DNA from: Gammaproteobacteria bacterium
GTDB lineage: Bacteria > Pseudomonadota > Gammaproteobacteria > Eutrophobiales > Eutrophobiaceae
Reading direction: 5' to 3'
NCBI GenBank assembly: GCA_026710545.1
Contig: JAPOQU010000096.1
Location: forward strand, 1 to 64,000
DNA length: 64,000 nucleotides
Part shown: one piece after another, positions 27,432 through 54,447 of the stretch
Numbering within the stretch: position 1 is the first letter of the stretch
Layout of the letters: each line of letters starts with the position of its first letter
Program-made: the position numbers and the translations under genes
The notes under the pieces: model-generated
What the model was told of the DNA's origin: nothing
The model's input: only the letters and a program-made list of their open reading frames with translations
Database searches by the model: none

Positions 27432-29180
27432 GTGTCCAGCAACAAGGAAATGGCATCAAATTCAAGACGGGATAAGAACCAGGGCATGAACAGGATAAAG
27501 AAAATAACACTTGACCCCCGAAATCAGAACTTCTCGGAGGTGATGAGTAATGGTAAGCAGTATGTCGTCCCGCATTTCCAGCGTGACTACTCCTGGGAAG
27601 AAGATCAGTGGGATATATTATGGCAAGACATTGAGGTAGTTCGTACAAGTCGCACGCAGCATTTCATGGGTTACCTGTTGTTACAGACCGACGATGATAG
27701 AGAATTCCGGGTAATCGACGGTCAGCAACGCCTTACTACACTCAGCCTGCTGATTCTAGCCGCTCTCAGCCGAATAGATGCTTTAATCAGGGAAAATGGA
27801 TCAGGCAAAGAAGCAGATCAACAGCGCATGGATACGTGGCGAAATACGTATGTCGGTGTACTCGACACGATCACCATGAAAACTGATGCGAAGCTTAAAT
27901 TAAATAGACATAACAACAAACATTTCCAGGATCTTTCTATCCACCTGGACGTTGTTCAGCAACGCAATGTATTACGTACCAACCGCTGTATCAATAAATG
28001 TTTCGAGTATTTTCGTCATAAGTTTGCTGATGATAATGGCCAAGAGATTGCCAGACGAATTAAGGATATAGAGGAAGGCCTTATATTCACCAGTATTATA
28101 GTTAGCGATGATATTAATGCATATGTTGTCTTTGAGACCCTCAATGCACGGGGTATTCATCTATCACCATCAGATTTGCTCAAAAATTACCTGTTATCCC
28201 AACTTGCTCAGGATGATCGATTTGGAGATGAGAATTTCGATGACTTTGAGGAGCGTTGGAGTTCTATCCTTGAACAATTAGGAGAGCGTGAATTTACGAA
28301 CTTTTTACGCAGCCAATATGGAATTTCTCATTCCCCTTTGCCATCCAAAACTGATCTTTACCGTTCATTGAAGGATAAAGTCAATCATTCAAATCACATA
28401 TTTGAATATATGATTGAGCTTGAAAAATCAGCGCCCTTATATGCCGCGCTACAAAACCATCATGATGAATTCTGGAAAGACATACCCGATGCAAGGGAAC
28501 CTCTGGAGTTATTGAAGACCTTTAATGTGAAGGCGCCCCTAAGTCTTCTGATGGCCGCGTACCAAACGTATGAGCAGCTGGACTTCATCCGGTTGCTGAA
28601 AAAAATTGTCAATTTCTCAATGCGTTACAACATTATCGGAAATCGCCTGCCCAATGCGCAAGAGACACTTTATAACAAAATGGCAAATCAAATTGTCAAA
28701 GGGACAGGTATAAGGGACGTTATACGTATGATTGGTGATTTATACCCTCTTGACGAAACTTTCAAAAGTGATTTTGTCGTCAAAATAATGCCTAGCAGGC
28801 AAAGTACAAAGAAGATCATGCTGATGCTCCGGTTATTGGAACGGCACATCAGCGAGGGAGATTTGCCTTCCAGCGAACTGACTTTAGAGCATATTCTCCC
28901 ATATTCACCTGATGATGAATGGCAGGAATATTTTGGAAGGGATGATTATCTTCAGGCAATTGACCGTCTGGGTAACTTTGCAATCATGCCGGCAACCGGG
29001 AATATGGCTCAGGAATCGTTTAATGAAAAGAAAAGCAAGCTGGCTGAAAGCAATTATAAGATCAACCAACATATTGCCAAGTACCCACGTTGGGACATGG
29101 ATAATCTCAAGGAACACCAGACTTGGCTTGCCAGGCAGGCAGCATCGTTATGGAAAATCAGCGAACTCTCAAGAAAATAA
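27432..29180 (+). CDS. GmrSD-type defence nuclease (DUF262 and DUF1524)
   Basis: The N-terminal DUF262 domain shows PHFQRDYSW (47-55) and DGQQRLTTL (from 96), the ParB-like nucleotide-binding part of GmrS. The C-terminal DUF1524 domain has the HNH-like LEHILPYS (His near 486) and RLGNFAIM. GmrSD enzymes are type IV restriction systems against modified phage DNA; related single proteins are found in many defence islands. The start may be the GTG at 27432 or the ATG at 27450. It is visibly more A+T-rich than its neighbours, a sign of acquisition, and its end overlaps the convergent TRAP gene by 23 bases. Confidence 0.85.
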   Translation: MSSNKEMASNSRRDKNQGMNRIKKITLDPRNQNFSEVMSNGKQYVVPHFQRDYSWEEDQWDILWQDIEVVRTSRTQHFMGYLLLQTDDDREFRVIDGQQRLTTLSLLILAALSRIDALIRENGSGKEADQQRMDTWRNTYVGVLDTITMKTDAKLKLNRHNNKHFQDLSIHLDVVQQRNVLRTNRCINKCFEYFRHKFADDNGQEIARRIKDIEEGLIFTSIIVSDDINAYVVFETLNARGIHLSPSDLLKNYLLSQLAQDDRFGDENFDDFEERWSSILEQLGEREFTNFLRSQYGISHSPLPSKTDLYRSLKDKVNHSNHIFEYMIELEKSAPLYAALQNHHDEFWKDIPDAREPLELLKTFNVKAPLSLLMAAYQTYEQLDFIRLLKKIVNFSMRYNIIGNRLPNAQETLYNKMANQIVKGTGIRDVIRMIGDLYPLDETFKSDFVVKIMPSRQSTKKIMLMLRLLERHISEGDLPSSELTLEHILPYSPDDEWQEYFGRDDYLQAIDRLGNFAIMPATGNMAQESFNEKKSKLAESNYKINQHIAKYPRWDMDNLKEHQTWLARQAASLWKISELSRK

Positions 29181-31017
29181 AATAAAAGCTCAATACGGAT
29201 AATAGAACGAGCAAAACTCGATATATCATCCCACAAATCCGCCAGGAGCGGATTTGCACAGCACATCTCATTGATTTTGGGCCGAATATAGCGGCTGCAA
29301 TACATGCCTGTATAACAACCAGGGCTGCGAACAGTAACGGTGTGCGCCAGGTCCAGTCTTCAACCATCGAGAGTTCCGGTTTGTAGATCACCGCGAAAGG
29401 GATAAGAAAAACAGGAACTGTCAGTTTTAACGCATTGACGGCGGTAGGGAAGAACCTGGAACCGGCCAGTTTGGCCGCAGCCAGCACCCCGACGGCAATA
29501 GGCAGGGTCAGCGTGGAGAACACGGCAAAATAAAACACGAAGAAGTGTGATTGAAATGCAGGGAACCCCAGTTGCTGCAGAAACGGCACCACTGCAAGGG
29601 CCGTTACGACGTAAGCGACGGGGGTAGGCAGGCCCATGCCCAGTATGAGCGTGATGAACATGGCCCCGACCAGCAGAAGCAACGGGGCATCGGGCAGTAT
29701 ATCGACCAGGACCGAGCCGAGACGGCCGGATAAATTTGTCGTTATCATTGTCTGTCCGAGAGGACCGATAGCGATAATCAGCAGCGATAACAGGGTTACC
29801 AGAACGAGCCCTTCCTCCAGCGCGCCGAAAATCTTTTTCGCTGTCGGCCTGTACCTGCCCTGGAACATGGACAGAGCCAACGCAGCGGCGATCCCGCACA
29901 TCCCTGCGATGGATGGGGAGTAGTGCATCAGCAACATGACCAGGACAACCGCAAACGAAACAACAAAAGTAGGCGCAATCCTGAGAACGCTTCCGGCGTC
30001 AAAATTATCAGTCAGCTTCGGGATCTGTTGCCGTCTTGCGTATAGCGACACGCTGATGAATATGCCGGTTAAAAACAGCAGCGCCGGTAACAGTGCGGCG
30101 CCTGCAACCTTTATATAGGGGATGTTGAGCAACGCGGCAATCAAAAACCCGGCCAGCCCAAGTATCGGCGGCATTAGCTGGCCCGCCGTAGAGGCTACCG
30201 CTTCTATAGCTCCGGCCATTGACGCGGAATAACCGTTTTTTTTCATCATGGGTATGGTAAACCGGCCGGTAAGAACCACGTTGGACACAGCCTGCCCCAT
30301 CACCGAGGCGACGATCCCGCTGCCCAGGATCGCCGGATAGGCAGCGCCTCCCGCCACCTTTTTGCCTGATACCTTGCCCAGTTCCAACGCCATCTGCAAT
30401 GCACCGATACTGATCAGTACGCTGGCATAGATGAGCAGGAAATAGATACTGTCAGCAGCCAGTTGCGTCAACAGGAAAAAGCCCTGTGTGGTTCCCAGCC
30501 CGATATAGTTCATAACAAAGCCGGTTTGATAGTGCGGGTGGGTAAACAGGACGTTATCGATATGGTGGCCGTAAAAAAAATAGACGATTGCCAAAGCGAT
30601 AATAGAGGTAAGCAATACCCCCCAGTGCAGCAGGGTGAGCAACAGGATCCCGGCCGTAAATATCAAACCGTAAACCACATCGATGTTCTCGAAAAACGGC
30701 TGGAGCAGCTCCAGCCTGGATACGTTGTAACGGATGTAGACTGCGCCTGTTGCAGCCAGAATGAAACCGGCAACAGCAACGATACACCTGGTGTGAAAGT
30801 ACCTGGCCCTGTTGTCCTGCAGGTGCTCATCCAGCATGTTTCGCAGGCCGAGCAGACCTGACATGATGACGATGCCGAGTACGAAGCTTGAGTAATGGGC
30901 GGGAGAACTGCGCACATAACCGAATAGTGCAACCGCGATAGAACCGGATAACAGCACGCCGGTTGTTACAAACAGGAATTGAACGACGACGCGGGTTTTA
31001 TGCCAATAGATGGGCAT
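29158..31017 (-). CDS. TRAP transporter fused permease (TAXI type)
   Basis: A 619-residue membrane protein with about 16 helices in which the small (DctQ) and large (DctM) TRAP subunits are fused, as usual for TAXI-type systems. GLPTPVAYVVTALAV and the repeated Gly/Ala-rich helices fit DctM. It works with the TAXI binding protein encoded upstream (31167-32231). The last 25 residues look unlike the family and contain a short DNA palindrome (29235-29255), so the C-terminus may have been altered. Cargo is probably a carboxylate or sulfonate given the neighbouring coenzyme M genes. Confidence 0.85.
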   Translation of the reverse strand: MPIYWHKTRVVVQFLFVTTGVLLSGSIAVALFGYVRSSPAHYSSFVLGIVIMSGLLGLRNMLDEHLQDNRARYFHTRCIVAVAGFILAATGAVYIRYNVSRLELLQPFFENIDVVYGLIFTAGILLLTLLHWGVLLTSIIALAIVYFFYGHHIDNVLFTHPHYQTGFVMNYIGLGTTQGFFLLTQLAADSIYFLLIYASVLISIGALQMALELGKVSGKKVAGGAAYPAILGSGIVASVMGQAVSNVVLTGRFTIPMMKKNGYSASMAGAIEAVASTAGQLMPPILGLAGFLIAALLNIPYIKVAGAALLPALLFLTGIFISVSLYARRQQIPKLTDNFDAGSVLRIAPTFVVSFAVVLVMLLMHYSPSIAGMCGIAAALALSMFQGRYRPTAKKIFGALEEGLVLVTLLSLLIIAIGPLGQTMITTNLSGRLGSVLVDILPDAPLLLLVGAMFITLILGMGLPTPVAYVVTALAVVPFLQQLGFPAFQSHFFVFYFAVFSTLTLPIAVGVLAAAKLAGSRFFPTAVNALKLTVPVFLIPFAVIYKPELSMVEDWTWRTPLLFAALVVIQACIAAAIFGPKSMRCAVQIRSWRICGMIYRVLLVLLSVLSFYFIFLRVR

Positions 31018-31042
31018 GGGGACAAGGAAAATGTATTTGACT

Positions 31043-31147
31043 GGATTCCCGCGTGCGCGGGAATGACTCTTCTATATGCCTTACACACCTGATACACTCA
31101 CTGGGTTCCCGTGTGCACGGGAATGACGGAATTATCTGCGGGAATGA
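31043..31147. repeat. Repeats with core ATTCCCGCGTGCGCGGGAAT
   Basis: One full copy at 31043-31067, a diverged one at 31103-31127 (TTCCCGTGTGCACGGGAA) and a partial GCGGGAATGAC near 31138-31147. All are palindromic and end in GAATGAC. They separate the TAXI receptor gene from the permease gene in one operon, so they may tune or stop transcription there. This is a widespread dispersed repeat type in proteobacteria. Confidence 0.85.
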
Positions 31148-31166
31148 CGGGTGACTATACAAGCTT

Positions 31167-32231
31167 CTAGCGCGGATACGTGACCGGAAATTCCTGGTTG
31201 CGATCATCCCACCATCCTAACTCCCGGTAGGCGCGCATGGCCCCCGGATGAACGTTTTCGTCCGTTAATCCGCTCAGCATCAGTTGCGGAGACCACAACT
31301 TCCAGATTGCATGGTATTTTTTCATTTCCGGCCCCAACCGGGCGATGGTCATGATTATATGGTAGGCAAGCTCTTCAGGGAAATCAGGGTGGGACGCCTT
31401 GTATCCCCGGTTTATGGCCGAAGGCAACGGTTCATCCTGGTGCGGCAGGGTACCTGCCGGCAACTCTATCGGCATCCAGGTGGTACGGAACTTCATGTTC
31501 AGTTTTTCCACGACCTCTTTTTCGATTCCCAGATAGTACATTTTTTTTCCGGCAGCCTCGATCTTGCGTACAACCTGCTGGATCAACCAGTGGTTCCGGC
31601 CGGGTTCGGTGCCGAAACTGCCTGCGGCCACATCCGTGACGCCATCGATCAGTTGCTGCGACAGCGCGACCGGTGTCAAGTGGCGGATATCCGTATTTTC
31701 AGGCGTCACGCGGTAACCGTGTTCAAGAAATAACCTTGGGTATACGCCCCAGTCACTTTGGCTTCTCAGGCCGATTGAAACCTGTTTGCCCTGCAGTTGG
31801 GCCAGGCTGCTGACATTTTCCTCGTAGGTGATGAAAACCTTCCCCCCACCCCACCATGCTTCACAGTAGAGCAACTTGAACCTGATAGCGATTTTTTCCG
31901 GTAAAAACTCCTTCAGTTCATCCGACCCGCCATGGAACGCCAACTGGATGATCGTATCTTCGGTATTGAACAGCGTCGTACCCCAGTTTTCCGGGTTCTT
32001 CATCGCGCGGATGTTGTAGATATACCCGGGGGTCTCCTGGGGCAGGAGGACAACGGGATGACGTCCCTGGATCATCCGGTTCATTAATATCGTGTCACCG
32101 GCAAGCGGGCCGGCGTTAAACGGTGCGACGAGAACCGGGACGGTAACAGGTTTGTCCGCAGCCGCGACGTTGACCGGGGAAACGCAGAAAAAAACCGTGG
32201 CAAAAACCAGGCTGATGAATTTAACTTTCAC
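31167..32231 (-). CDS. TAXI-family TRAP solute-binding protein
   Basis: A signal peptide (cleavage after VAAA) precedes a periplasmic binding protein of the TAXI group, 354 residues. It should deliver a small organic anion to the fused permease. The GTG start overlaps the stop of the flavoprotein gene (GTGA), so the transporter is translationally joined to the coenzyme M/CoA genes. Import of a sulfonate or carboxylate related to CoM is a reasonable inference. Confidence 0.85.
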   Translation of the reverse strand: MKVKFISLVFATVFFCVSPVNVAAADKPVTVPVLVAPFNAGPLAGDTILMNRMIQGRHPVVLLPQETPGYIYNIRAMKNPENWGTTLFNTEDTIIQLAFHGGSDELKEFLPEKIAIRFKLLYCEAWWGGGKVFITYEENVSSLAQLQGKQVSIGLRSQSDWGVYPRLFLEHGYRVTPENTDIRHLTPVALSQQLIDGVTDVAAGSFGTEPGRNHWLIQQVVRKIEAAGKKMYYLGIEKEVVEKLNMKFRTTWMPIELPAGTLPHQDEPLPSAINRGYKASHPDFPEELAYHIIMTIARLGPEMKKYHAIWKLWSPQLMLSGLTDENVHPGAMRAYRELGWWDDRNQEFPVTYPR

Positions 32232-33592
32232 CTGTTACCGACTTTGCTGTTGAGGGCGCCTGCCGCCGTTATCATCGGAGATAACACCGGGCTGAACGGC
32301 GGCGCGTAGGCCAGGTCCGCGTTCTCCAGGTCCTCGCAGGTCAACCTGCCCAGAAGAGCAGTCGCCGCGATATCTATCATCTTGTCGGCCTTGCCCGGTC
32401 CGATAACCTGGGCGCCCAGCAACCTGCCACCCTGTTTGTCGGCAACCAGTTTGATTGCCAGACTGTTGCCTCCCGGATAATAGCGCGCACGATCAGACCG
32501 GTTCACATTGACGGACACGGCCTCATAGCCCGCTTGCCGGGCTGCGGTCTCGGACAGTCCGGTACAGGCAACATTGAGATCAAAGGTCTTGAATATTGCG
32601 GTTCCCAATACGCCGGGGAAACTGGCATCGCCCCCCGCGGCATTTTCACCGGCAATCCTGCCCTGCAAATTGGCAATATCCCCCAACGGCAACCAGGTGG
32701 TTTTCCCGGTAACCCGGTCGACAGTCTCACAGCAGTCGCCCGCGGCATAAACGCCCGGGACCCGCGTTTGCATTTTCCTGTCGACCGCGATCGCCCCGGT
32801 TTCACCGATGGCGATCCCGCCGTCTTTCGCCAGGTCAGTGTTTGGTCTGACCCCGATCGCGACCACCACAAGATCGACGTCCCGCTCCAGTCCTGACTCA
32901 GTGGTTACCGATACCACCCTGCCGTTTTCCCCGGTAATCCCGGCCAACCCCTGTCCTGTAATGAGTTCGACATTGTTTTCCACCAAGTGAGCGCTGACCT
33001 GCTGCGCCATTTCCTCATCGAATTTCGGCAGGATGCGGTCAAATTTTTCAATGATGGTCGTTTTTACGTTCAACTCATGGAACGTCTCGGCGAGTTCAAG
33101 GCCGATATACCCTGCCCCAATGATCGCGGCTTTCCCCGGTTTCAGGATATCTATGGTTGATTTGAACCTGTCCAGGTCGGAGATGGAGCGCAGCGTCAAC
33201 ACGCCTTCCAGTTCAATCCCGTCAACGGCCGGAATTATCGGCCTTGCGCCGGTTGCCAGGATGAGCTTGTCATAAGCAGTTGTCTGCGCGCCGTTTACGG
33301 ACAGGTCGTTGACCCGTATTTGCCGGGTTGCTACGTCGATGGCTTCAACCCGGTGCCGGGTCAGGGCACGGATATTATCACTGGCAAACTCCTGCGGCCG
33401 GCGAATGACGATTTTATCCCTGTTTTCAATGACACCGCTCAATACATAGGGTTGGCCGCATGCCGAATAGGAGACTTCCGTTTCATCCTGGTACACGACA
33501 ATATCCAGATCCGGCCTCATTCTCCGGGCTTTGGCAGCCGCCTTGGCACCTGCTGCTACTCCTCCTATTATTACCAGTCGTTCTGCCATCAT
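32228..33592 (-). CDS. CoA-disulfide-reductase-like flavoprotein
   Basis: A 454-residue FAD/NAD(P)H pyridine nucleotide-disulfide oxidoreductase. It has the FAD motif GGVAAGAKAAAKARR, the single redox Cys in YSACGQPY (the CoA disulfide reductase arrangement, not the CxxxxC pair), an NAD(P)H motif GAGYIGLELAE and GVYAAGDC. The family reduces CoA disulfides, persulfides or NADH/O2. Its placement in a CoM operon makes it a candidate for the reductive step that releases free CoM thiol, or for cleaving a CoM thioether. The frame is open from a TTG at 33610; the ATG at 33592, eight bases past the previous stop, is preferred. Confidence 0.8.
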   Translation of the reverse strand: MMAERLVIIGGVAAGAKAAAKARRMRPDLDIVVYQDETEVSYSACGQPYVLSGVIENRDKIVIRRPQEFASDNIRALTRHRVEAIDVATRQIRVNDLSVNGAQTTAYDKLILATGARPIIPAVDGIELEGVLTLRSISDLDRFKSTIDILKPGKAAIIGAGYIGLELAETFHELNVKTTIIEKFDRILPKFDEEMAQQVSAHLVENNVELITGQGLAGITGENGRVVSVTTESGLERDVDLVVVAIGVRPNTDLAKDGGIAIGETGAIAVDRKMQTRVPGVYAAGDCCETVDRVTGKTTWLPLGDIANLQGRIAGENAAGGDASFPGVLGTAIFKTFDLNVACTGLSETAARQAGYEAVSVNVNRSDRARYYPGGNSLAIKLVADKQGGRLLGAQVIGPGKADKMIDIAATALLGRLTCEDLENADLAYAPPFSPVLSPMITAAGALNSKVGNR

Positions 33593-33599
33593 TCTCTCA

Positions 33600-35651
33600 T
33601 CATCCGGCAAGTATTCTTACGTCGACCACGGTAAACTCATCCCCGTGGGCGATGACCGGGTTCATGTCAACCTGCTCAATCCAGCCCGATTCATCTATCC
33701 ACCGGGAAAAATCGGCGATCAACCGGGCAAGTGTATCCCGGTTAATCGGCACGTTACCCCGGTAGCCATCCAACACTTGCCGGCCCTTTATTTCATCCAG
33801 CATATCATGCGCCATTTCCACGCTGACGGGCGCAAGACGCAATGCTACGTCTTTAAGCACTTCCACCATTGTACCGCCGATGCCGAACGTGATGACCGGC
33901 CCGAAATTGTCATCCCGGGTTGCTCCCAGCAACAACTCCACGCCGGCCGTAATCTGCTGCTGCACCAGGAACGGCCCGCTGCCGAACAGGGATTCCATTT
34001 TATCGGCTGTTGACATCAACTCTCGCGCTGAAGAAATTCCGACCTTGACCGCTCCGGCATCGGATTTATGTATCAAATCCGGGCGTATGGCTTTAATCAC
34101 CAGGGGGTAAGCCGCATGTTTGCTGACAGAACGCAGTTCGGCTGCTCCGTTTACATAATGCCAGCGTGCTGTATTAATCCCCTCTTCCTGAATAAGAGTC
34201 AATGCAATGTCCATCGGTACCCATTCATTAGCGGAAACCCGGTCAGGGCGGGGACGCTTATTCGGACCGGCGCCGATATTCCCGGGCCTGGAGCCGATAC
34301 AGGCGGCGATGGTTTTGGCCGTTCGCAGCGGCCAGGGGTGGACGGGAATCCCGTTATCCTGCAGTTTCTTTTTATTATTGTCCGCCTCGGGCCCGGCAAC
34401 CCAGCACACATGTACAGGTTTAGCCTTTTTATTTGCCTTTGCCGACCGATACTCCTGGATGACACGCTCGGTGACTTCGGGCATTATTGCCGAACGTTGC
34501 AGCAGGACGGGCAAGATAATATCGACTTCATCGGATTCCGTTAACAACCGGATTGCCGAACCGTACATCTCGGTAAAGCGGTGCCACTGGGTAGTAACGT
34601 CGACCGGGTTTGCCGAGCTGCCCTGATCAGGTAAAAAAGCGCTTATTTTCTCCTGTAATCCCCCTGATAAGGCAGGCACTTCAAGGCCGTAATCGGTTAG
34701 CAAATCGGTCAACTCGACTCCTGTCCCACCCGAATTGGTGATGATTGCCACGCGTTTTCCCTTGTGGAACGGTTGCTTGTCCAGCGCCGCCGCGGTATCC
34801 AGCAGGGTCTGGCCGTCGGTTACCAGGTGCGCGCCGGCCTGGCGCAGTGCCGCCGCCGTTACCGCGTAATCACCGGCGAGCGCCGCGGTGTGGCTGGCGG
34901 CGGCGCGCTGCCCCGAGCCGGTCCTGCCGGTCTTTAATATGACTACCGGCCTGGTTTCAGTGGTCCGGTTTATCTCATCGAATAATGCGCGCCCGTCAGT
35001 TATGGATTCTATCAGCATGGCAATGACCCGCGTGTCAGGGTCATTGCGCAGGAAGGAAAGCAGTTCGATTTCGTTGATATCAATTTTATTTCCCGGCGCG
35101 ATCACCTTGGCAAAACCGATTTCTCCCAGTTTTGAACGGGTAAACGCGGCCATGCCGTACGCTCCGCTCTGGGTAATCAACGACACCCCGCCTTTCTCGG
35201 GCAGACCCAGTCCCAGGGAAGCGTTCAACCCCAGGTGTGTGTTAATTACACCGAAGCAGTTGGGCCCGAGCAAACGTAAATTCCCTTTAGCGGCGATTTC
35301 GGCAATCGATCGTTCAAGCGCCGTTCCTTTTTCCCCGGTTTCTGCAAAACCGCCGCTGATTATCACGGCCGTTGCGACCCCTGCCTCAACGCACTCTTCA
35401 ATAACCTGCGGCGCCGCGCCGGGTGGCGTGGTCAGGATCGCCAGGTCAACCGGGCACGGGGTATCTTTAACGGATGGGTATGTCTGAAGCCCAAGTATCA
35501 TTTCCTGTTTCGGGTTGATTGGATAGATGTTTCCCGGATAGGCGTTGACCAGGTTCTGCATGAAAAGATAACCCAGTTTTCCCTCGGTACCGGAAGCGCC
35601 GATCACCGCGACATGGTCAGCGCATAACAGGCGTTCAGCCCAGCCGCTCAT
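33600..35651 (-). CDS. NDP-forming acyl-CoA synthetase, 683 aa
   Basis: A fused alpha-beta acyl-CoA synthetase: CoA-binding Rossmann domain (IGASGTEGKLG near residue 18), succinyl-CoA ligase-like domain with the phosphohistidine loop ASHTAALAGDYAV, and a C-terminal ATP-grasp domain. The family makes an acyl-CoA from a carboxylic acid and ATP, giving ADP. The ATG at 35651 overlaps the previous stop (ATGA). In this context the acid may be acetate, a ketone-derived acid or a CoM-linked carboxylate from alkene oxidation; the substrate is not visible. Confidence 0.85.
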   Translation of the reverse strand: MSGWAERLLCADHVAVIGASGTEGKLGYLFMQNLVNAYPGNIYPINPKQEMILGLQTYPSVKDTPCPVDLAILTTPPGAAPQVIEECVEAGVATAVIISGGFAETGEKGTALERSIAEIAAKGNLRLLGPNCFGVINTHLGLNASLGLGLPEKGGVSLITQSGAYGMAAFTRSKLGEIGFAKVIAPGNKIDINEIELLSFLRNDPDTRVIAMLIESITDGRALFDEINRTTETRPVVILKTGRTGSGQRAAASHTAALAGDYAVTAAALRQAGAHLVTDGQTLLDTAAALDKQPFHKGKRVAIITNSGGTGVELTDLLTDYGLEVPALSGGLQEKISAFLPDQGSSANPVDVTTQWHRFTEMYGSAIRLLTESDEVDIILPVLLQRSAIMPEVTERVIQEYRSAKANKKAKPVHVCWVAGPEADNNKKKLQDNGIPVHPWPLRTAKTIAACIGSRPGNIGAGPNKRPRPDRVSANEWVPMDIALTLIQEEGINTARWHYVNGAAELRSVSKHAAYPLVIKAIRPDLIHKSDAGAVKVGISSARELMSTADKMESLFGSGPFLVQQQITAGVELLLGATRDDNFGPVITFGIGGTMVEVLKDVALRLAPVSVEMAHDMLDEIKGRQVLDGYRGNVPINRDTLARLIADFSRWIDESGWIEQVDMNPVIAHGDEFTVVDVRILAG

Positions 35652-36652
35652 AACCATGCTCCGTCACCGGCAAAAAATGCAGGCTCGCCGCCCGTATGTA
35701 TGAAAATGACGGTGTCGTAGTGATTGAATTTACCCCGCGCCAGTCCGTCGAGGTAGCCGGCCATGGCCTTGCCCGTATAGGTCGGGTCCAGAAGCAGACC
35801 TGCAGACCTGCTCGCAGTCCGGATTGCCGCGCTGCCTTCGGGGCTTGGAATTCCATAACCCTCACCTATAAAACCGCCGTGAACCGGCGCGTCGGCCCTG
35901 GTAAAACTCATGTCCACGTCCAGCAGGCCTGCCGCTTCCGTTGCCAGTGCTGCGACCTGCTCAGCCACTTCAGCCGGCTCCCTGCTGACCGTAAAACTCT
36001 CAATTTTCCAGTCAAGCCCAAGCAACCGCAGCCCCAGTAACCAACCGGCAAAAGTGCCGCCGGAGCCCAGTGGAAAGATGATTGCATCCGGTTCGAGCCC
36101 AAATTGTTCGCATTGTAACTGCAGCTCGCGTACCGCTATGACATGGCCCAGTGCCCCCAAGGCACAAGCACCGCCCCTGGGTATGGGATAGGGACGTTTT
36201 CCCCGGCTTTCCAACTCGTCTGCCACTTTATTGATATAGCCGTCAACCGAGGACCTTTCAGGGGCTCCGGTAAACCGAATCTCTGCTCCCAACATTTTTG
36301 TTACACGGTAATTTCCATCGACCGTGCCCGGCTCCTCACCCCAGTAAATGGCGACACAGTCCAGTTTCTTGTACGCAGCAACTGCGGCGGTTGCCCGAAC
36401 ATGGTTGGATTGCACGCCGGCTCCGGTGATCAATGTATCTTTGCCGGTATTCAGAGCATCCTGCAACAAGACTTCGAGGCCGCGCACCTTGTTGCCGCCC
36501 ATTGCAAAGCTGATTAAATCATCCCGTTTGAACCAGATATCCGGCCCCCCGATTTGATCGCGTAACTGTTCGGCCTGTATCAGTGGAGTGGGATATTGGG
36601 CCAGGTGGTAACGCGGAATTTTATTGATGATTTCGTCAAATGATGAACTCAT
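35648..36652 (-). CDS. PLP enzyme of the D-cysteine desulfhydrase family (CoM biosynthesis candidate)
   Basis: A fold-type II PLP protein with the Schiff-base Lys in AMGGNKVRGLE, the phosphate loop GSGGTFAG and GAGVQSNHVRA, typical of D-cysteine desulfhydrase/ACC deaminase. In Xanthobacter the CoM biosynthetic set includes a PLP enzyme of this kind (XcbE1) beside a ComA homologue and two fumarase-like proteins, the same company found here. It is inferred to put the thiol sulfur onto the CoM precursor. TAATG links it to the preceding lyase gene. Confidence 0.85.
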   Translation of the reverse strand: MSSSFDEIINKIPRYHLAQYPTPLIQAEQLRDQIGGPDIWFKRDDLISFAMGGNKVRGLEVLLQDALNTGKDTLITGAGVQSNHVRATAAVAAYKKLDCVAIYWGEEPGTVDGNYRVTKMLGAEIRFTGAPERSSVDGYINKVADELESRGKRPYPIPRGGACALGALGHVIAVRELQLQCEQFGLEPDAIIFPLGSGGTFAGWLLGLRLLGLDWKIESFTVSREPAEVAEQVAALATEAAGLLDVDMSFTRADAPVHGGFIGEGYGIPSPEGSAAIRTASRSAGLLLDPTYTGKAMAGYLDGLARGKFNHYDTVIFIHTGGEPAFFAGDGAWL

Positions 36653-38007: not shown

Positions 38008-38014
38008 TCCGTCT

Positions 38015-43099: not shown

Positions 43100-43110
43100 C
43101 ACTACCTCCT

Positions 43111-45643: not shown

Positions 45644-46663
45644 TCAATCAGATGTGGCCGGATAAAATGCATCGAAATAAACATTCCGCGGCCTGACTCC
45701 CCGTTCCAAAAGCAAGGATGTCGCCGCATCTATCATGGGGGGTGGCCCACACAGATAGGCGTCGCAATTCCTGTATGATTCCCTGTGTCGGGCCAGCGCT
45801 TCCGTTACCAGTCCCGTTTCCCCGCGCCAGTCACCCGGCCAGCTATCGGATAACACCGGGATAAATTCCAGCACCGGCATGGTTTGAACCACGGCTTCTA
45901 TCTCCTTGATATAGTAAAGATCATCATTTGTTCTAGCGCCAAAAAAGAATTGGACGGGCCGTTCATTTCCTTTTTCCGCTAATCGGTTCAGCATGGATAA
46001 TAACGGAGCCAGACCGGACCCGCCGGCAACCATGATGATGTTTCTGTGTGAGAGTCTGATTCTCAGTTCCCCATAAGGACCATGGACCTGTAATCTGTCG
46101 CCTGTATTTAACCGGTCCTCCAACAGTTTGGAAAATCTTCCTTCCGGAAAGATCTTGACGATGAATTCCAGAAAGTTTTTTTCTTCAGGGGAGTTTGCCA
46201 TTGAATAGGGCCGCCAATGCTGAGTGCCCGGAACCTGTATATTGGCAAATTGACCTGCGGTAAATTTCATCTCATCCTCATCGACAATACGCAACCGCAG
46301 CCTGCGAATATCCTTTGTCAGAGGTTCATTGATTTCTATCCTGGTTTCATATTCCCTGGACTGGTCTCCGGCAAGAAACTCTTCTTGCGAAATACCCATA
46401 CTACCGATATCAATTGTACAGTCGTCTGTCGGAGTCGACACGCAAGGGAGAAACCAGTCATCTTCTCTTTCTGCAGGGCTTAAACAAAACGTGGAGGGAG
46501 GTTCGTCAATATCTCCGTCAAGCAGACGCGATTTGCAGGTGCCGCAGCCACCGTGTTTGCAACCATAGCGTATAAACAATCCCTGTCTCAGCGCAGCCTT
46601 TAATAAGGTTTCCCCATCCTCACACTCAAATTCATGGTGGAAAGGCTCGACCGTTATTTTCAT
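45644..46663 (-). CDS. etnD: Alkene monooxygenase reductase (EtnD)
   Basis: A 339-residue ferredoxin-NAD(P)H reductase: N-terminal [2Fe-2S] domain with YGCKHGGCGTC and a fourth Cys in STFCLSP, then an FAD domain (WRPYSMANSP) and an NAD domain (MVAGGSGLAPLLSML). It feeds electrons from NADH to the diiron alkene monooxygenase. It follows the alpha-subunit gene by six bases, in the etnABCD order. Confidence 0.92.
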   Translation of the reverse strand: MKITVEPFHHEFECEDGETLLKAALRQGLFIRYGCKHGGCGTCKSRLLDGDIDEPPSTFCLSPAEREDDWFLPCVSTPTDDCTIDIGSMGISQEEFLAGDQSREYETRIEINEPLTKDIRRLRLRIVDEDEMKFTAGQFANIQVPGTQHWRPYSMANSPEEKNFLEFIVKIFPEGRFSKLLEDRLNTGDRLQVHGPYGELRIRLSHRNIIMVAGGSGLAPLLSMLNRLAEKGNERPVQFFFGARTNDDLYYIKEIEAVVQTMPVLEFIPVLSDSWPGDWRGETGLVTEALARHRESYRNCDAYLCGPPPMIDAATSLLLERGVRPRNVYFDAFYPATSD

Positions 46664-46669: not shown

Positions 46670-48184
46670 TCAGAGGCAGACTCCATGAAGCGGGTCCTTG
46701 ACCTCGTATTTGAGCGCGCGAATGTCGTCAATAGTCCACATCTTCTGATCAGGAGATACCGTAGGTTGGCCTATCAGGGTTTTACCATCAGGACGGATAT
46801 AGCCGAGATCTGAAATGACATCAGCCAGGTCCCAGCCGTGATACTTGTGCCAGAACTGCTTGCGCCGGGTATAGGCCTTCGGCCATTTTCTCAATACCCA
46901 TTCACATCCTTCACTGCAGGTCGGATACTGTGATCCATTGACTTCAACCAGGCGGAATTCATTGATATCCAGTCTTGGCAGCGCACAGGGCAACTGGCAA
47001 ACCTGGCAAATCGGCGGCAGACTTTCCAACTCCTGCAATATGATGTGCCCACCTGCCGGATCCGCCAATTGTTTATACCCATCCCAGTATGCGCCGTAGT
47101 GATTATGCCAACCCGGATAATTTTTCTCGAACCATTCGTAGTCTTTTTCATTCATGGCATCGGAACGCCAGAAATTCAGCGGCCAGATAGCCGAAAATAC
47201 CTGGCCGACCGTATGGGTCATCCAGTCAAGATCTTCCACGGCCTTTCCCAGAAATCTCGGCACTTCGACGCCGAATTCACCCAGGCCTTCCAGGTAACCC
47301 CCGACAAAATCATCGACAATCCATTCCTGCCATTGGTCCCTGTAAGCCCATGCACGATTTACGGAACCGTATTCAGACTGCCATCCGACCAGGGCATCCA
47401 GTCCCTTGTGCGCATGCCAGAAATGGCGTTCAAGGGCGTCGTTAACCAACGGCACATTCTCCTCATTGCGCAGGACCGATATCAACGAGCCGTATCCGTT
47501 CGCCATATGCCGCGCTTCATCGGATTGAATTGAAAGAAATGTTGTCGCCAGGGCATGATCGCCATTCAGGACTGCCGACTGTGGCGCAGCGACCAGGAGG
47601 ATATTGGTATAAGCAGTTTCAATTACAATATTCAGGTCAATAATACAGTCTATGGGATCACCGGTATTGAAATGCTGGAATTCACCTATTGCGACAAGCC
47701 CGCCGGGATGCTGGAACAGGGCTTTTTGTCCAAGATCCCACCCGGCCGGGTCAGGAACATTCTTCACATAATAGTTACGTAAGGCCATTTCCAGCTGGGT
47801 ATGACGAATTTCATCCAGCATCTGCGCATGATAGCCTTGCCTGAGTTCCTGGTTCTGAACGGATGAAATAATGCCGCCGCAGGCTGCAACTGCCACATAT
47901 TCAGCATTGCCCAGGTCCAACAGTGTCAATTTCAAACACTCGTTAAACCTTGGTTCCATTTTTTCCGCTATTCCCATCCTCAGCGCGCCATCGATAAATC
48001 CATGGGTGCGATCATCCTTTTCGGCTTCCATCTTCATGTAATCCCTCACCAGCATACGAAAAGGGTCCTTGCCTTTCGTCGGGATATTATATTTAGTGTC
48101 AAATTTCGGCTTTTTTTCCGTAAACGAAAAATCCCAATCGTAATCTTTTGCCTTTTCATGTACTTCTACGAGATTAGCTGTCAT
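46670..48184 (-). CDS. etnC: Alkene monooxygenase alpha subunit (EtnC), diiron hydroxylase
   Basis: The catalytic subunit of a group 4 soluble diiron monooxygenase, 504 residues. The six iron ligands can be placed: Glu95, Glu125 and His128 (DEIRH), Glu189 (VIETAY), Glu223 and His226 (DEARH), with spacing almost identical to that of methane monooxygenase. It epoxidises short alkenes with O2. The gene order beta, coupling, alpha, reductase and the four-component make-up match the EtnABCD/AmoABCD enzymes of Mycobacterium, Nocardioides and Rhodococcus, not the six-component enzyme of Xanthobacter. Ribosome site GGGGGAG. Confidence 0.93.
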   Translation of the reverse strand: MTANLVEVHEKAKDYDWDFSFTEKKPKFDTKYNIPTKGKDPFRMLVRDYMKMEAEKDDRTHGFIDGALRMGIAEKMEPRFNECLKLTLLDLGNAEYVAVAACGGIISSVQNQELRQGYHAQMLDEIRHTQLEMALRNYYVKNVPDPAGWDLGQKALFQHPGGLVAIGEFQHFNTGDPIDCIIDLNIVIETAYTNILLVAAPQSAVLNGDHALATTFLSIQSDEARHMANGYGSLISVLRNEENVPLVNDALERHFWHAHKGLDALVGWQSEYGSVNRAWAYRDQWQEWIVDDFVGGYLEGLGEFGVEVPRFLGKAVEDLDWMTHTVGQVFSAIWPLNFWRSDAMNEKDYEWFEKNYPGWHNHYGAYWDGYKQLADPAGGHIILQELESLPPICQVCQLPCALPRLDINEFRLVEVNGSQYPTCSEGCEWVLRKWPKAYTRRKQFWHKYHGWDLADVISDLGYIRPDGKTLIGQPTVSPDQKMWTIDDIRALKYEVKDPLHGVCL

Positions 48185-48197
48185 GACATCTCCCCCA

Positions 48198-48497
48198 TCA
48201 GTCGTTGAAGCGTTCGGGCTTTATCTCCGAGAAGATTTCAACCTTTCCATCAGAAACAACAATTCGGCCGTAGTAGGAACTCATATTTACCAGAAAAATA
48301 TCCGTATCAAGGTCACGGCCCAGGAAATCTGATATCCCTTCCATATCAAATTCAAGTTTATTATCACGTTCAACTTTGTAATAACAGTCACGATCACTCA
48401 CGCGGGCATCACTTGCACTTTCTTCCAGGTATTCCAGGGTCGCCCGTGTTTCATCACTTTTCATCAATGAGATACCGACACTATTATTTGAAATCAT
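48198..48497 (-). CDS. etnB: Alkene monooxygenase coupling protein (EtnB)
   Basis: A 99-residue MmoB/DmpM-type effector protein, with SVGISLMKSDETRATLEYL at the start and a C-terminal IVVSDGKVEIFSEI strand pair. Coupling proteins bind the hydroxylase and time O2 activation. A long open frame continues upstream into etnA, but the ATG at 48497 with AGGAG eight bases before it gives the normal family length. Confidence 0.88.
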   Translation of the reverse strand: MISNNSVGISLMKSDETRATLEYLEESASDARVSDRDCYYKVERDNKLEFDMEGISDFLGRDLDTDIFLVNMSSYYGRIVVSDGKVEIFSEIKPERFND

Positions 48498-48513
48498 AAT
48501 TATATCTCCTCGT

Positions 48514-49527
48514 TTAAAGTCCAAGCTCTTGTACCAGCGATGATTGCATGTTTTTAACCCGGGTAAATCCCTGTTCAAAAGGGTCGGCATCAATTCCATC
48601 AATCTCGAAAACCGTTTGCAATGACTGTGCTGCTTTTTCGCACAGCGGCGTCCATTTTGCCAGCCAGCTTCCAATAATCTTTTTATTGTCAGTTCCATGT
48701 TCTGAGTCAGCCAAAACCATATTGACAATTGCCTGAACAAGTTGCAGGTGATATTTAGAGTCACGCCGCGCATTCGCCAGAATCATAGGCGTGACTGCAT
48801 CCCCATTTATGGGCGCATTCTTGGTCATGAATTCGGTTTTGAATAAATTTCCGACCAGCGGCTCAAACACCAGCCCCAAAACAACGACTATCTCTGCCCA
48901 ATCATCGGAATCGATAAGGCGCTCGGTTATTTCACGAGTTGGAACAAGCGCGGGAGAATCCATCCAGGCTGACCTGGCTTGTTCATCGGAATAGCCGGGT
49001 AACGCTTCCTTTAAATCAAAAATCAGATGCACTATATCCTGTTGATGGCGTACTTTATCTGTAGCCTGAAACCCCAGCGAAAACGTGAGTGTTGCATCCA
49101 GTACCTGCCGTACTGCATAGCATATTGCCAAAAATTGGCCATACTCCACAAAAGGCCATGCTGCATAATACTTACCCAGAATTTCATCCCGCCAGACCGG
49201 ATTGATGCGGTCGGCAACACCATCCTGCAACGCCTGTTTTGTCATGCCGTCCAGTGCCTGCTCTTCATGGTTGTTTCGAGAGACATAAGGCCTTTGCCAT
49301 ACTTTCATGGGATCACGAAATTCATCCCAGGCAGTACATTTTATTTCCGAGGCAGCTTCTGTGAAAGGCTCTTGACCATCATCAAAACAAAGCGGCCAAT
49401 CAACATCCAGCCATTGATGAGGGCCTGACTGTTGTCCTAATGTGTAGGATTCGTAATCAGTGGGTCTACGTCTTTCCGGTTTAAACCAGGTGAAATGCCG
49501 GTTTCCCGACAAATTTGCAGTAGTCAT
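48514..49527 (-). CDS. etnA: Alkene monooxygenase beta subunit (EtnA)
   Basis: The non-catalytic hydroxylase subunit of a soluble diiron monooxygenase, 337 residues, helical, with RHFTWFKPERRRPTDYE at the N-terminus, a block typical of beta subunits, and no diiron motifs. GGAGGGG precedes the ATG. It is the first gene of the minus-strand alkene operon and diverges from xecC over a 198-base region with shared control repeats. Confidence 0.9.
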   Translation of the reverse strand: MTTANLSGNRHFTWFKPERRRPTDYESYTLGQQSGPHQWLDVDWPLCFDDGQEPFTEAASEIKCTAWDEFRDPMKVWQRPYVSRNNHEEQALDGMTKQALQDGVADRINPVWRDEILGKYYAAWPFVEYGQFLAICYAVRQVLDATLTFSLGFQATDKVRHQQDIVHLIFDLKEALPGYSDEQARSAWMDSPALVPTREITERLIDSDDWAEIVVVLGLVFEPLVGNLFKTEFMTKNAPINGDAVTPMILANARRDSKYHLQLVQAIVNMVLADSEHGTDNKKIIGSWLAKWTPLCEKAAQSLQTVFEIDGIDADPFEQGFTRVKNMQSSLVQELGL

Positions 49528-49649
49528 TAATTCAATCCCCCTCCTCTATACCACTTTGATGATCCCTGGTTATTATTCTACCCGGGCTACAAACCCATTT
49601 TGAAGTCGACTATCCTAATGTCTTACTGCTTATATGATAGTATAAATAA

Positions 49650-49679
49650 TTATTCATAACTATAATTAATTATCCAAAC
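49650..49679. promoter_or_regulatory. TTATCCA-type repeats in the etnA-xecC divergent promoter
   Basis: TTATTCATAA (49650) and TTATCCAAAC (49670) lie 20 bases apart, one on each side of an A+T-rich spacer, between the two divergent alkene operons. An inverted repeat ACTATC/GATAGT is just upstream (49609-49641). A shared activator site is inferred. Confidence 0.5.
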
Positions 49680-49704
49680 CAGACAAATTCGCGCCATTGA
49701 TTGA

Positions 49705-52049
<2,345 letters not shown>

Positions 52050-52094
52050 ATTGTTCGCCTGCGCGAACAGGGACAGGTAAGTAATACGATAATT

Positions 52095-52895
52095 TCAGCC
52101 TGCGCTGCTCGGGCTGAAACCGGTTTCCAGGCGATCAACCAATTGTACGTGTGTATGTACGCACAAATTGTCATATACCGTGGAACCTGAGAACTGGTAG
52201 ACAGGATATTGACAAATAACGGTGACCCAGGGGGTAACCTCCAGCATCGCGTCCAGGGCTGCCTCATACGGAACCAGTTGTTCACAGCCCATAACGCCGC
52301 TGCTGGCCCAGCCCATCTCACCCGTAAGAAGTAACCTCTTGGTGCCGGATGCCTCGTGCGTGGTGATAATATTCTGCCAGAAGGACAACATGCGATCGGT
52401 ACTGAAGTGGCCGTCTTTCAAATACGTATCAGCATCGGTATGCAGTTCAAGTACGCCACGACCAATCAGGTCTTCCGGGTCCAGGTCTTCGTTTCTGAGC
52501 CAGTTCAACAGTTGCTGTTTGTCCCGCTGATAGATATAGACGGTTTTCGCTTCCGAATTGAGGTGATCGAGCAGTTGCATCCGTAGCAGGGCCCACTGTT
52601 CTTTGGGACTCTTGAAAAAAGTACAGATGTGTTTACGCGTTTCGCGCCGCCCCTGTTTGACAGACCGGGAATCGTCAGATGCAGACATTCGATAATCGTC
52701 CTGATAATCGCCTGTATCAATGGATTTACCCATAAAAGCGACCAGGTCGTCAAGTAAAAAACGGCGTTCATTGCGATGGCCCACGCGATAACAGGCGAGG
52801 CGTTTATTGTTTGTCCAGCGTCGCAATGAGGTTTTACTGACTTTAAGGTAATCTGCTGCTTCTGTGATAGTAAGAAATTTCTTCTGTGCCGGCAT
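52095..52895 (-). CDS. DcmR-like regulator with excisionase HTH and MEDS domain
   Basis: An N-terminal MerR/excisionase-type helix-turn-helix (TITEAADYLKVSKTSLRRW, about residues 10-28) is joined to a MEDS domain (FFKSPKEQWALL, VYIYQRDKQQ, YLKDGHFSTDRML, RLLLTGEMGW). MEDS was named from methanogen/methylotroph DcmR sensors and is thought to bind hydrocarbon derivatives. It is the only regulator inside the alkene locus, between xecD and the aldehyde dehydrogenase. It is the natural candidate for binding the repeated TTATCCATA sites, one of which lies before its own gene. The ATG at 52895 follows GAGGGG. Confidence 0.85.
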   Translation of the reverse strand: MPAQKKFLTITEAADYLKVSKTSLRRWTNNKRLACYRVGHRNERRFLLDDLVAFMGKSIDTGDYQDDYRMSASDDSRSVKQGRRETRKHICTFFKSPKEQWALLRMQLLDHLNSEAKTVYIYQRDKQQLLNWLRNEDLDPEDLIGRGVLELHTDADTYLKDGHFSTDRMLSFWQNIITTHEASGTKRLLLTGEMGWASSGVMGCEQLVPYEAALDAMLEVTPWVTVICQYPVYQFSGSTVYDNLCVHTHVQLVDRLETGFSPSSAG

Positions 52896-52968
52896 AGGGC
52901 CCCTCAAGGAGAATTGTTGTATAACAGCTAATTATATCATATTTTTTCTTACTCACACATAATCAATG

Positions 52969-52978
52969 TTGTCCATAA
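52969..52978. promoter_or_regulatory. Single TTGTCCATAA copy upstream of the DcmR-like gene
   Basis: One copy, identical to that at 45571, lies 74 bases before the regulator start, in the 121-base gap to the aldehyde dehydrogenase gene. Autoregulation is possible. Confidence 0.35.
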
Positions 52979-53016
52979 CCCCTCATTGCCGTAATACTGC
53001 CGCAGTAAACATCTCA

Positions 53017-54447
53017 CTACCGCCCATGCTTGTCCCAATGTGCCGAGAACAGCGATTCTTCGTCTATTGCCCGTGGTGTAACGGGCCTTGATACCCAGGT
53101 CTCGTTTATCATGTGGCGCGCATTGACATTTTCGGTGGTGATATTCCCACCCCAGGTGCCGCAACTCAGGCTTAATGTATACGGCAACCCGTTGCGCGGG
53201 CTTCCTGCGCCTTCGTTAAGATTCTGATTTATCATGACACGGCCGGTTTTGGTGTTCATCGCCACCGCCATAATGTTTTCCTCGGTGTTTGAATGGATAC
53301 CGCAGGTATGACCCTGTCCCTGGTAGTCGGTGATCGCATTGACCTGGTCAATGGCGTTGTCTATCGCTCCTGAATACCTGTACAAAGCCAGAACCGAAGA
53401 CAGCTTCTCCCCTGAAAACGGATATGCCGGACCTGCCCCGGATTCTTCCACGATCAGGTAGCCGCAATCTTCAGGAACGTCAATACCCGCCAATTCAGCA
53501 ATAGTCGTTGCAGGTTTGGCAATAATCTCCAGGGCAGGTATATGATTGCCGGGATCAGGCCACATAAGTTCCTGTAGCTGCCTTTTCTCATCGGCTGAGC
53601 ATAAATATCCTCCCATCGCCTGTAACCTGTCTGCAAACTCACCATAAACAGCCTCGTGCGCTATCACTGCATTATCAGCCAGACAGGACGTAGCGTAATC
53701 GAACTTTTTCGCGGCCGTAACGGCGTTGGCTGCATCATCCAAATCTCCAGTCTCATCAACAACATGCACACTGTTGCCGACGCCGACGCCATAGGCCGGC
53801 GTGCCGGAACTGTAAGCCGCTTTCACCATGCCGGCGCCACCTGTGGCAACCACCAGGTCAGCCATCTCCATCAGAGCCCGGGTCTTTCCCAGCGATGGCT
53901 TCCGGATCGCCTGCACCAGGTCTGCCGACGCGCCGGCCTGTTCACAGGCTTCACGCATATAGTTGACTGTCAACTCGGTAGTCTGCTGGGTGCGGGGATG
54001 GGCGGCAACGATGATGGCATTGCGGCCCTTTACCGCCAGTAGCGTCTTCAGCGGTGGAGTTGCATCCGGACCGGTTGTCGGTATCAGCGCTGCAACCACG
54101 CCGACCGGCTTGGCGATTTTGATCAATCCCCTGTCAGGATCTTCCGCAATGATTCCGGCTGTCTTAACCGATTGCATGTCTGCCAGCGTGCCCATGCAGC
54201 GGTTGCGTATTTTCATTACCTTGTCGGGGTAGTTACCGAACCCGCCTTCATCCACGGCAATCCTGGCAAGCTCTTCGGCACGGTCCTGACGCACTATTGC
54301 CCAGCAGATTGCAGTGACAAGTTCGTCAACCTGCTGCTGGTTGTAGTTCTCGATTTTCTTCTGGGCAGACTTTGCCCGTTCAATCAGCGATGCAACTTCC
54401 GCTCTCTCTGCTTTTGCTTTCTCATCAGCTTCCATTTTTTCTCTCAT
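53017..54447 (-). CDS. CoA-acylating aldehyde dehydrogenase
   Basis: A 476-residue protein of the EutE/AdhE-N/SauS acylating group, with NAD-site region PTTGPDATPPLKTLLAVKGRN and the catalytic Cys in FDYATSCLADNAV. It converts an aldehyde and CoA to an acyl-CoA. Of named relatives, sulfoacetaldehyde dehydrogenase (SauS) seems near, so a sulfonated aldehyde such as 2-oxoethyl-CoM from ethene, or sulfoacetaldehyde itself, is a plausible substrate; this is inference. It is divergent from the FadL gene with shared repeats. Two close ATGs (54447, 54435) leave the start open by four codons. Confidence 0.85.
   Translation of the reverse strand: MREKMEADEKAKAERAEVASLIERAKSAQKKIENYNQQQVDELVTAICWAIVRQDRAEELARIAVDEGGFGNYPDKVMKIRNRCMGTLADMQSVKTAGIIAEDPDRGLIKIAKPVGVVAALIPTTGPDATPPLKTLLAVKGRNAIIVAAHPRTQQTTELTVNYMREACEQAGASADLVQAIRKPSLGKTRALMEMADLVVATGGAGMVKAAYSSGTPAYGVGVGNSVHVVDETGDLDDAANAVTAAKKFDYATSCLADNAVIAHEAVYGEFADRLQAMGGYLCSADEKRQLQELMWPDPGNHIPALEIIAKPATTIAELAGIDVPEDCGYLIVEESGAGPAYPFSGEKLSSVLALYRYSGAIDNAIDQVNAITDYQGQGHTCGIHSNTEENIMAVAMNTKTGRVMINQNLNEGAGSPRNGLPYTLSLSCGTWGGNITTENVNARHMINETWVSRPVTPRAIDEESLFSAHWDKHGR

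Follow-up and report, generated by a model that had tools for sequence, protein, structure and literature searches.

The stretch of DNA analysed here, called the window below, comprises bases 1-64000 of contig C96 (96,485 bases; GenBank JAPOQU010000096.1) in a draft genome of the family Eutrophobiaceae (4.43 Mb, 129 contigs, completeness estimate 100%); an earlier reading of the sequence alone had taken the host for a gammaproteobacterium, which is supported. Between about 32.2 and 54.4 kb the window carries genes for a diiron alkene monooxygenase, for coenzyme M (CoM)-dependent epoxide enzymes and for the synthesis of CoM. We read them as a locus on the chromosome that serves alkene assimilation and provides the CoM for it, at a probability of about 0.75. 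Judged from the genes, propene is the likely substrate and ethene a plausible one.

The alkene-to-acetoacetate route with its own CoM synthesis that the sequence-only reading had proposed is supported, as a prediction, by family matches and active-site residues (Table 1). The monooxygenase AmoABCD would epoxidise propene (and ethene), and epoxyalkane:CoM transferase (EaCoMT) would open the epoxide ring with CoM. The R- and S-2-hydroxypropyl-CoM dehydrogenases (HPCDHs) would convert both 2-hydroxypropyl-CoM enantiomers into 2-ketopropyl-CoM, from which 2-ketopropyl-CoM oxidoreductase/carboxylase (2-KPCC) would form acetoacetate by thioether cleavage and carboxylation, releasing CoM. ComA, XcbC, XcbD, XcbE and XcbA would supply CoM from phosphoenolpyruvate and sulfite, and a MEDS-domain regulator would sense the substrate. 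A SauS-like dehydrogenase, a CoA-transferase-like pair, an acyl-CoA synthetase and a flavoenzyme would probably lead from 2-ketoethyl-CoM to acetyl-CoA. Substrates, fluxes, regulation, growth and the C2 route are what we infer from this gene set. All genes named in the sequence-only reading were found; it had overlooked the XcbA-family protein, the ethene-type module and a copper membrane monooxygenase.

Enzymes of the predicted propene route

The four-component diiron monooxygenase proposed earlier is encoded in the order beta subunit, effector, alpha subunit, reductase. Both of its hydroxylase subunits match PF02332, the effector is of the MmoB type and the reductase is MmoC-like. Its alpha subunit AmoC is 68% identical to that of pMYCCH.01 of Mycolicibacterium chubuense NBB4, 55% to EtnC of JS614 and NBB4 and 23% to the alpha subunit of Xanthobacter Py2. 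E-x-x-H motifs, which we take to be the iron sites, lie at positions 125 and 223. By these identities AmoABCD belongs, as a predicted alkene monooxygenase, to group 4 of the soluble diiron monooxygenases (SDIMOs), on the EtnABCD/PmoABCD side and not with Xamo. A second soluble diiron monooxygenase of the genome (G000:C39:17459-19384) was considered as an alkene oxygenase and set aside as phenol-hydroxylase-like, because its neighbours resemble, by eye from translations, a DmpP-type reductase, a plant-type ferredoxin and an extradiol dioxygenase.

EaCoMT, called earlier with its zinc ligands, keeps H216, C218 and C339, which are invariant in a five-row alignment (window, two Py2 copies, NBB4, JS614). 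It is 80% identical to the Methylomicrobium wino1 enzyme and 69% to those of Py2; a 76% match in Py2 cluster III is a 34-residue remnant. Other EaCoMT matches in the window genome are partial and at most 37% identical.

The R-HPCDH retains Arg152 and Arg196, as first noted, together with S142/Y155/K159; we take the former to bind the sulfonate and the latter to be catalytic. The S-HPCDH-like enzyme, also called earlier, has its best PDB match in 4gh5, which we assume, with 4itu, to be S-HPCDH (the PDB label of 4gh5 gives a short-chain dehydrogenase/reductase (SDR) only). It keeps an RRLxKYPIG stretch near the C-terminus, to whose Arg and Lys residues we presume a role.

2-KPCC is 65% identical to the Py2 enzyme, 59% to that of Methylomicrobium wino1 and 48-51% to those of actinobacterial plasmids. 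Redox cysteines C85/C90 and the previously reported pair F502/H507 are kept (C82/C87 and F501/H506 in 1mo9); the Phe/His pair presumably replaces a His-Glu pair and would be the signature of the carboxylase. Both HPCDHs and this pair make up the propene signature. Matches spanning <400 residues were left out, as were those on L023, which has a truncated Py2 copy; across the 46 homologues counted, position 507 is His in 33 and Tyr in 13. All 13 Tyr copies (L027, L029, L030, L031, L033, L034, L035, L036, L041, L050, L056, L061, L066) come from methanotroph-named genomes, 11 of Methylococcales and two of Methylocystis. His is found despite a copper monooxygenase in the genome in L037 and L042, and also in L044 (titled USCa), which we take to be methanotroph-like. 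The tree needs two changes at this position, and a single Tyr clade, a group named after the tree had been inspected, is rejected (approximately unbiased (AU) test, p 0.003). His507 of the window enzyme is in line with a true carboxylase.

All five proteins of the predicted bacterial (Xcb) CoM pathway exceed their curated NCBIfam cut-offs. The ComA homologue, two fumarase-superfamily lyases and D-cysteine-desulfhydrase-like enzyme of the sequence-only reading turn out to be ComA, XcbC, XcbD and XcbE. Mycobacterial CoM clusters have been described (PMC8727900), and the XcbA-family protein is probably their 'xcbF1'. In Py2 cluster I (L020) an XcbA-like stretch at 21919-22775 lies in two pieces and different frames, in a gap of the record's gene table, and is probably a broken copy. 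A genome of the same family (L008, G019:C178) has adjacent XcbC-like (38%) and ComA-like (34%) genes but nothing that matches EaCoMT at E up to 1e-60; these genes suggest CoM-type chemistry without alkene use.

Extent, setting and conservation of the locus

Beyond the window, contig C96 continues into carAB, ftsH, a phosphoglucomutase-family gene and a serA-like gene; the CoM locus is therefore considered chromosomal, and a plasmid origin is not supported. The ten genes from the CoA-disulfide-reductase (CoADR)-like to the S-HPCDH-like gene overlap at eight of nine junctions, as mechanically called open reading frames, the ninth having 21 bases. Reading frames are intact in all 20 locus genes.

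EaCoMT matches at E up to 1e-60 occur in two of 53 family genomes, that of the window and the congeneric G002. The congener has the same gene order on two contigs, one of them 17,820 bases long, at 83-97% identity. The ratio of nonsynonymous to synonymous substitution rates (dN/dS) between window and congener is 0.03-0.19 for the 20 locus genes (CoADR-like to FadL), with XcbC, CoATa and FadL partial in the congener and CoATa broken there by a run of N (174 codons compared); for the three copper-monooxygenase genes it is 0.01-0.09. The 20 locus genes are under purifying selection. Overlapping junctions, open frames and these ratios together argue that the locus is not a product of chance.

A scan of a species-genome collection with two peptide patterns gave 117 stretches, 99 with an EaCoMT relative, of which the best 80 were examined. 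Contig ends truncate many of the flanks, 32 of the 80 loci retaining them almost whole, and the counts refer to the stretches available. Genes of the locus recur as follows: CoATb 60, CoATa 59, ComA 56, XcbA 55, XcbD 52, XcbC 45, 2-KPCC 43, acyl-CoA synthetase 38, XcbE 35, SauS-like 30, CoADR-like 27, S-HPCDH-like 22, MEDS 19, R-HPCDH-like 9 and AmoC 1. At least one CoM gene is present in 59 loci and all five in 29. The sole AmoC-bearing locus is that of the congener; as a positive control, the AmoC search detected the distant Py2 alpha subunit (118 bits). Seven loci from Acidimicrobiia, Chloroflexi, Ktedonobacterales and unclassified metagenome-assembled genomes (L043, L045, L048, L049, L052, L067, L040) have EaCoMT-like and 2-KPCC genes, with CoM genes except in L040, and no soluble diiron monooxygenase in their available stretches.

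The earlier span of 29158-54447 stands for its part from 32.2 to 54.4 kb; none of the 80 EaCoMT-like loci, in the stretches available, has counterparts of the TRAP genes that fill 29.2-32.2 kb. On contig C21 of the congener, separate from the other locus contig, the TRAP permease (91% identity) and the TAXI gene (87%) stand beside the CoADR-like gene.

Table 1. Features of the window, with model scores and, where given, curated cut-offs
Feature	Position	Strand	Evidence
Copper membrane monooxygenase operon, subunits C (20084-20941), A (21046-21792), B (21863-23092)	20084..23092	+	PF04896 351, PF02461 329, PF04744 525 bits
TRAP transporter fused permease	29158..31017	-	TIGR02123 322 bits, cut-off 321
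TAXI-type TRAP solute-binding protein	31167..32231	-	TIGR02122 52 bits, below cut-off 84
CoADR-like flavoenzyme	32228..33610	-	TIGR03385 422 bits, below cut-off 579; single redox Cys51 (SACGQPY)
NDP-forming acyl-CoA synthetase	33600..35657	-	TIGR02717 445 bits, below cut-off 567; 51% to Py2 cluster III gene
XcbE, pyridoxal-phosphate (PLP) enzyme of CoM synthesis	35648..36652	-	NF052537 507 bits, cut-off 450
XcbD, aspartase/fumarase superfamily	36652..38058	-	NF052536 639 bits, cut-off 600
XcbC, aspartase/fumarase superfamily	38015..39574	-	NF052535 654 bits, cut-off 575
XcbB/ComA, phosphosulfolactate synthase	39531..40406	-	TIGR03849 296 bits, cut-off 280
XcbA-family protein (DUF7714)	40390..41304	-	NF052538 465 bits, cut-off 150; PF24830 268 bits
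CoA-transferase-like beta subunit (CoATb), Ala95	41326..42297	-	nearest PDB 5mzw/5n00 series
CoA-transferase-like alpha subunit (CoATa)	42179..43159	-	PF01144 90 bits; nearest PDB 1poi_A, 5mzw_A
S-HPCDH-like short-chain dehydrogenase (XecE)	43111..43881	-	best PDB match 4gh5 254 bits, next 179
EaCoMT	44312..45424	-	PF01717; 69% to both Py2 copies; Zn ligands H216, C218, C339
AmoD, ferredoxin reductase, MmoC-like	45644..46663	-	53% to NBB4 pMYCCH.01
AmoC, diiron hydroxylase alpha subunit	46670..48184	-	PF02332; 68% to NBB4 pMYCCH.01
AmoB, effector protein (MmoB/DmpM type)	48198..48473	-	PF02406 78 bits
AmoA, hydroxylase beta subunit	48514..49527	-	PF02332 190 bits; 46% to NBB4 pMYCCH.01
2-KPCC	49726..51300	+	1mo9 812 bits; 65% to Py2
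R-HPCDH (XecD)	51297..52049	+	best PDB match 2cfc 350 bits, next 159
HTH + MEDS-domain regulator	52095..52907	-	PF14417 119 bits, PF12728 48 bits
SauS-like acylating aldehyde dehydrogenase, Cys255	53017..54447	-	NF047625 513 bits, below cut-off 600
FadL/TodX-type outer-membrane channel, possible hydrocarbon uptake	54687..56159	+	PF03349 132 bits

Ethene-type module

The locus also contains an ethene-type module of a CoA-transferase-like pair, an acyl-CoA synthetase, a disulfide-reductase-like flavoenzyme and a SauS-like acylating aldehyde dehydrogenase. The last is 76% identical to the Methylomicrobium wino1 enzyme and 66-67% to those of NBB4 and JS614. Its Cys255 is conserved throughout the 33 copies aligned, as is Cys51 of the flavoenzyme in all 33 of its own (at least 35% identity).

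The beta subunit of the pair, whose gene is probably called from a start too far upstream, has no Pfam or NCBIfam match. The nearest solved relatives of the pair are the AibA/AibB series, glutaconate CoA-transferase and CoA-transferase-annotated chains of the IpdAB kind, the names AibAB and IpdAB being those we assume, from papers and memory, for the PDB entries. Position 95 of the beta subunit separates the lineages. Among 65 copies it is Ala in 26 and Glu in one (L054) from genomes titled as Pseudomonadota, Glu in 26 from Actinomycetota and two from Chloroflexota, Ala in the Py2 copy, Glu in two copies each of NBB4 and JS614 and in four unclassified ones, and unread in one. The genes neighbouring the L054 copy score like actinobacterial ones. 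A tree of 63 rows, the window among them, from which short rows and the unread one were left out (27 rows with Ala, 36 with Glu; trait column kept in the alignment), accounts for the split by one change.

AibB has Cys in place of the transferase glutamate and IpdB has Gly there (PMC7756340, PMC5380842), and a Glu-to-Ala or Ser exchange abolished a family I transferase (PMC12400318). Both MAFFT alignments open a one-residue gap next to the AibB Cys, because of which the Glu of position 95 is rated only as likely to be the catalytic transferase glutamate. Speculatively, two alkene pathways may share one EaCoMT and CoM supply, and the proteobacterial 'CoA-transferase', its Glu lost once, may be an AibAB/IpdAB-like CoA-thioester decarboxylase or hydrolase and not a transferase, a proposal we hold to be rather doubtful. 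One scheme for it would have 2-KPCC turn 2-ketoethyl-CoM into malonate semialdehyde and the SauS-like enzyme form malonyl-CoA, which the pair would decarboxylate to acetyl-CoA.

Comparison with known systems

A single locus with all modules had been thought new for this lineage, which is refuted by a Halieaceae locus (PMC6440738) and by comparable clusters in Py2 and NBB4. Suzuki et al. 2019 described a propene-growing member of the Halieaceae whose amoABCD, EaCoMT, S- and R-HPCDH, 2-KPCC and CoM genes lie together on a stretch of about 20 kb (PMC6440738). Strain PE-TB08W (AB728560), a marine gammaproteobacterium, combines, like the window, a four-gene monooxygenase of actinobacterial type with Py2-type epoxide genes and CoM genes. 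On propene its amoC, EaCoMT, 2-KPCC and both HPCDH genes were transcribed, some also on n-butane (PMC6440738). With propene growth and transcription of equivalent genes, PE-TB08W is the closest experimental parallel to the window. Unlike the window, its locus has, in the accessible description, no CoA-transferase/synthetase module or SauS-like gene named, and seven truncated genes separate the epoxide system from the amo cluster (PMC6440738). Searches limited to open-access literature showed no further gammaproteobacterial all-module locus.

On pXAUT01, Py2 cluster I resembles the window in combining a monooxygenase, EaCoMT, 2-KPCC, two SDRs and ComA-XcbC-D-E within about 18 kb. Cluster III follows the window's order with a CoADR-like gene, synthetase, XcbD, XcbC, ComA, an XcbA-like gene, a CoA-transferase-like pair and an SDR, but without XcbE. 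Py2 differs in its plasmid location, its six-gene Xamo (alpha subunit 23%), the distribution of modules over three clusters and the lack of a SauS-like match in the stretches examined. NBB4 pMYCCH.01 shares pmoABCD, two 2-KPCC-like genes, two SDRs, a CoA-transferase pair, synthetase, CoADR-like gene, aldehyde dehydrogenase and CoM genes in about 25 kb; it differs as an actinobacterial plasmid whose beta subunit keeps Glu. EaCoMT was not found on it (E up to 1e-40) and is present only on pMYCCH.02. Since pMYCCH.01 has both, the joint occurrence of propene signature and ethene-type module is not new, EaCoMT lying elsewhere there.

Epoxide clusters of Methylococcales resemble the window in EaCoMT (69-83%), the SauS-like gene (67-76% where present), a CoA-transferase-like pair and CoM genes. 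They differ in lacking a soluble diiron monooxygenase in the available stretches and in their 2-KPCC, of which 11 homologues have Tyr, the other loci having none. As the oxygenase of the window is nearest to NBB4 and its CoM and epoxide enzymes are nearest to Py2 and gammaproteobacterial methanotrophs, the locus is regarded as a mosaic; the same was concluded for PE-TB08W (PMC6440738). A few searches of the open-access literature touching the Glu/Ala and His/Tyr splits gave, in the text accessible, no description of either.

Alternative functions

Several results weigh against alkene assimilation as read here. An acetoacetyl-CoA synthetase equivalog was not found in the window genome (best 262 bits, cut-off 521), and the alpha subunit of the CoA-transferase-like pair scores well under the ScoA cut-off (39 bits against 129; no search for ScoAB was made elsewhere in the genome). 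Aldehyde dehydrogenase, flavoenzyme and synthetase each fall short of their equivalog cut-offs. The C2 branch is the weaker half because PE-TB08W, which grows on 1-butene, does not grow on ethene (PMC6440738).

One alternative is detoxification in place of growth. A copper membrane monooxygenase operon, which precedes a multicopper oxidase gene and MerT/heavy-metal-domain genes, lies outside the locus proper, 9 kb away. It would co-oxidise alkenes, the CoM locus removing the epoxides, as proposed for methanotroph clusters including Methylohalobius crimeensis (PMC11507031). Copper subunit A occurs in the same two of 53 family genomes as EaCoMT, and the methanotroph cluster wino1 is a closer match than Py2 for both EaCoMT and the CoM genes. 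The copper enzyme offers a rival source of epoxide; its predicted substrate could be methane, ammonia or C2-C4 hydrocarbons, and a second alkene oxygenase is possible. Against detoxification stand the dedicated diiron monooxygenase within the locus, which 79 of the 80 EaCoMT-like loci lack in the stretches available (the congener excepted), the presence of both HPCDHs, and His507 where 13 methanotroph copies have Tyr, an argument weakened by L037 and L042. On balance we consider detoxification unlikely.

Subunit A of the copper enzyme is 99% identical to the congener's, with which it forms its own clade, and at most 52% to the 26 further copies compared. It sits on a long branch beside methanotroph pmoA, with support (90/94) short of the tree's firm-branch mark. 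An ethene oxygenase of the Haliea ETY type was also considered. The operon exceeds the cut-offs of the NCBIfam models AmoA/B/C_BACT, TIGR03078 and TIGR03079, and for subunit A it passes AmoA_BACT and stays under TIGR03080, which points toward that type. Judged from the description of ETY, not its sequence, the type is unlikely, because subunit A scores 304 bits to gammaproteobacterial PmoA (1yew) and about 240 or less to bacterial AmoA and alphaproteobacterial PmoA, ETY PmoA being described as nearer AmoA. The window genome also encodes a formaldehyde-activating enzyme (43 of 53 family genomes, itself included) and two PQQ alcohol dehydrogenases that exceed their cut-off.

By the same chemistry the locus might serve another natural alkene, such as 1-butene, butadiene or vinyl chloride. 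The group 4 SDIMOs of NBB4, PmoABCD like EtnABCD, act on C2-C8 alkenes (PMC8784404), and the growth of PE-TB08W on 1-butene agrees with such a substrate. Recombinant EaCoMT of PE-TB08W, however, converts epoxyethane and epoxypropane and 1,2-epoxybutane not markedly (PMC6440738), and 2-KPCC and the HPCDHs of the window match C3 enzymes, so that a different alkene carries little more than an outside chance. A decaying or misassembled relic, conceivable in a draft of 129 contigs, is highly improbable in view of the 20 open frames, their dN/dS of 0.03-0.19, the gene order shared with a second genome, where it spans two contigs, and the continuation of the contig into carAB, ftsH and a serA-like gene.

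Neighbouring genes

The MEDS regulator is 34% identical to the Py2 regulator Xaut_4864 (identified by position). The FadL/TodX-type channel is present in a congener contig with 95% identity over 273 residues. Elsewhere in the window, 5039-8265 encodes BoxC (904 bits) and BoxB (857 bits), enzymes of aerobic benzoyl-CoA degradation. A heme-copper oxidase subunit I and a CuA-type subunit II with weak family scores, followed by an Rrf2-type regulator, occupy 8447-12125, the oxidase pair possibly being a nitric-oxide-reductase-like system. A GmrSD-type restriction endonuclease (27432-29180) separates the copper monooxygenase operon from the CoM locus.

Implications

Self-sufficient CoM-dependent alkene use is probably encoded by a stable chromosomal locus in a gammaproteobacterial genus, one that would have brought together an oxygenase of actinobacterial type and CoM enzymes of proteobacterial type. 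Only a few steps of the ethene branch have been confirmed by experiment (PMC11507031). Through the two residue splits, that of the CoA-transferase-like subunit and that of 2-KPCC, this poorly known branch becomes accessible to specific enzyme tests.

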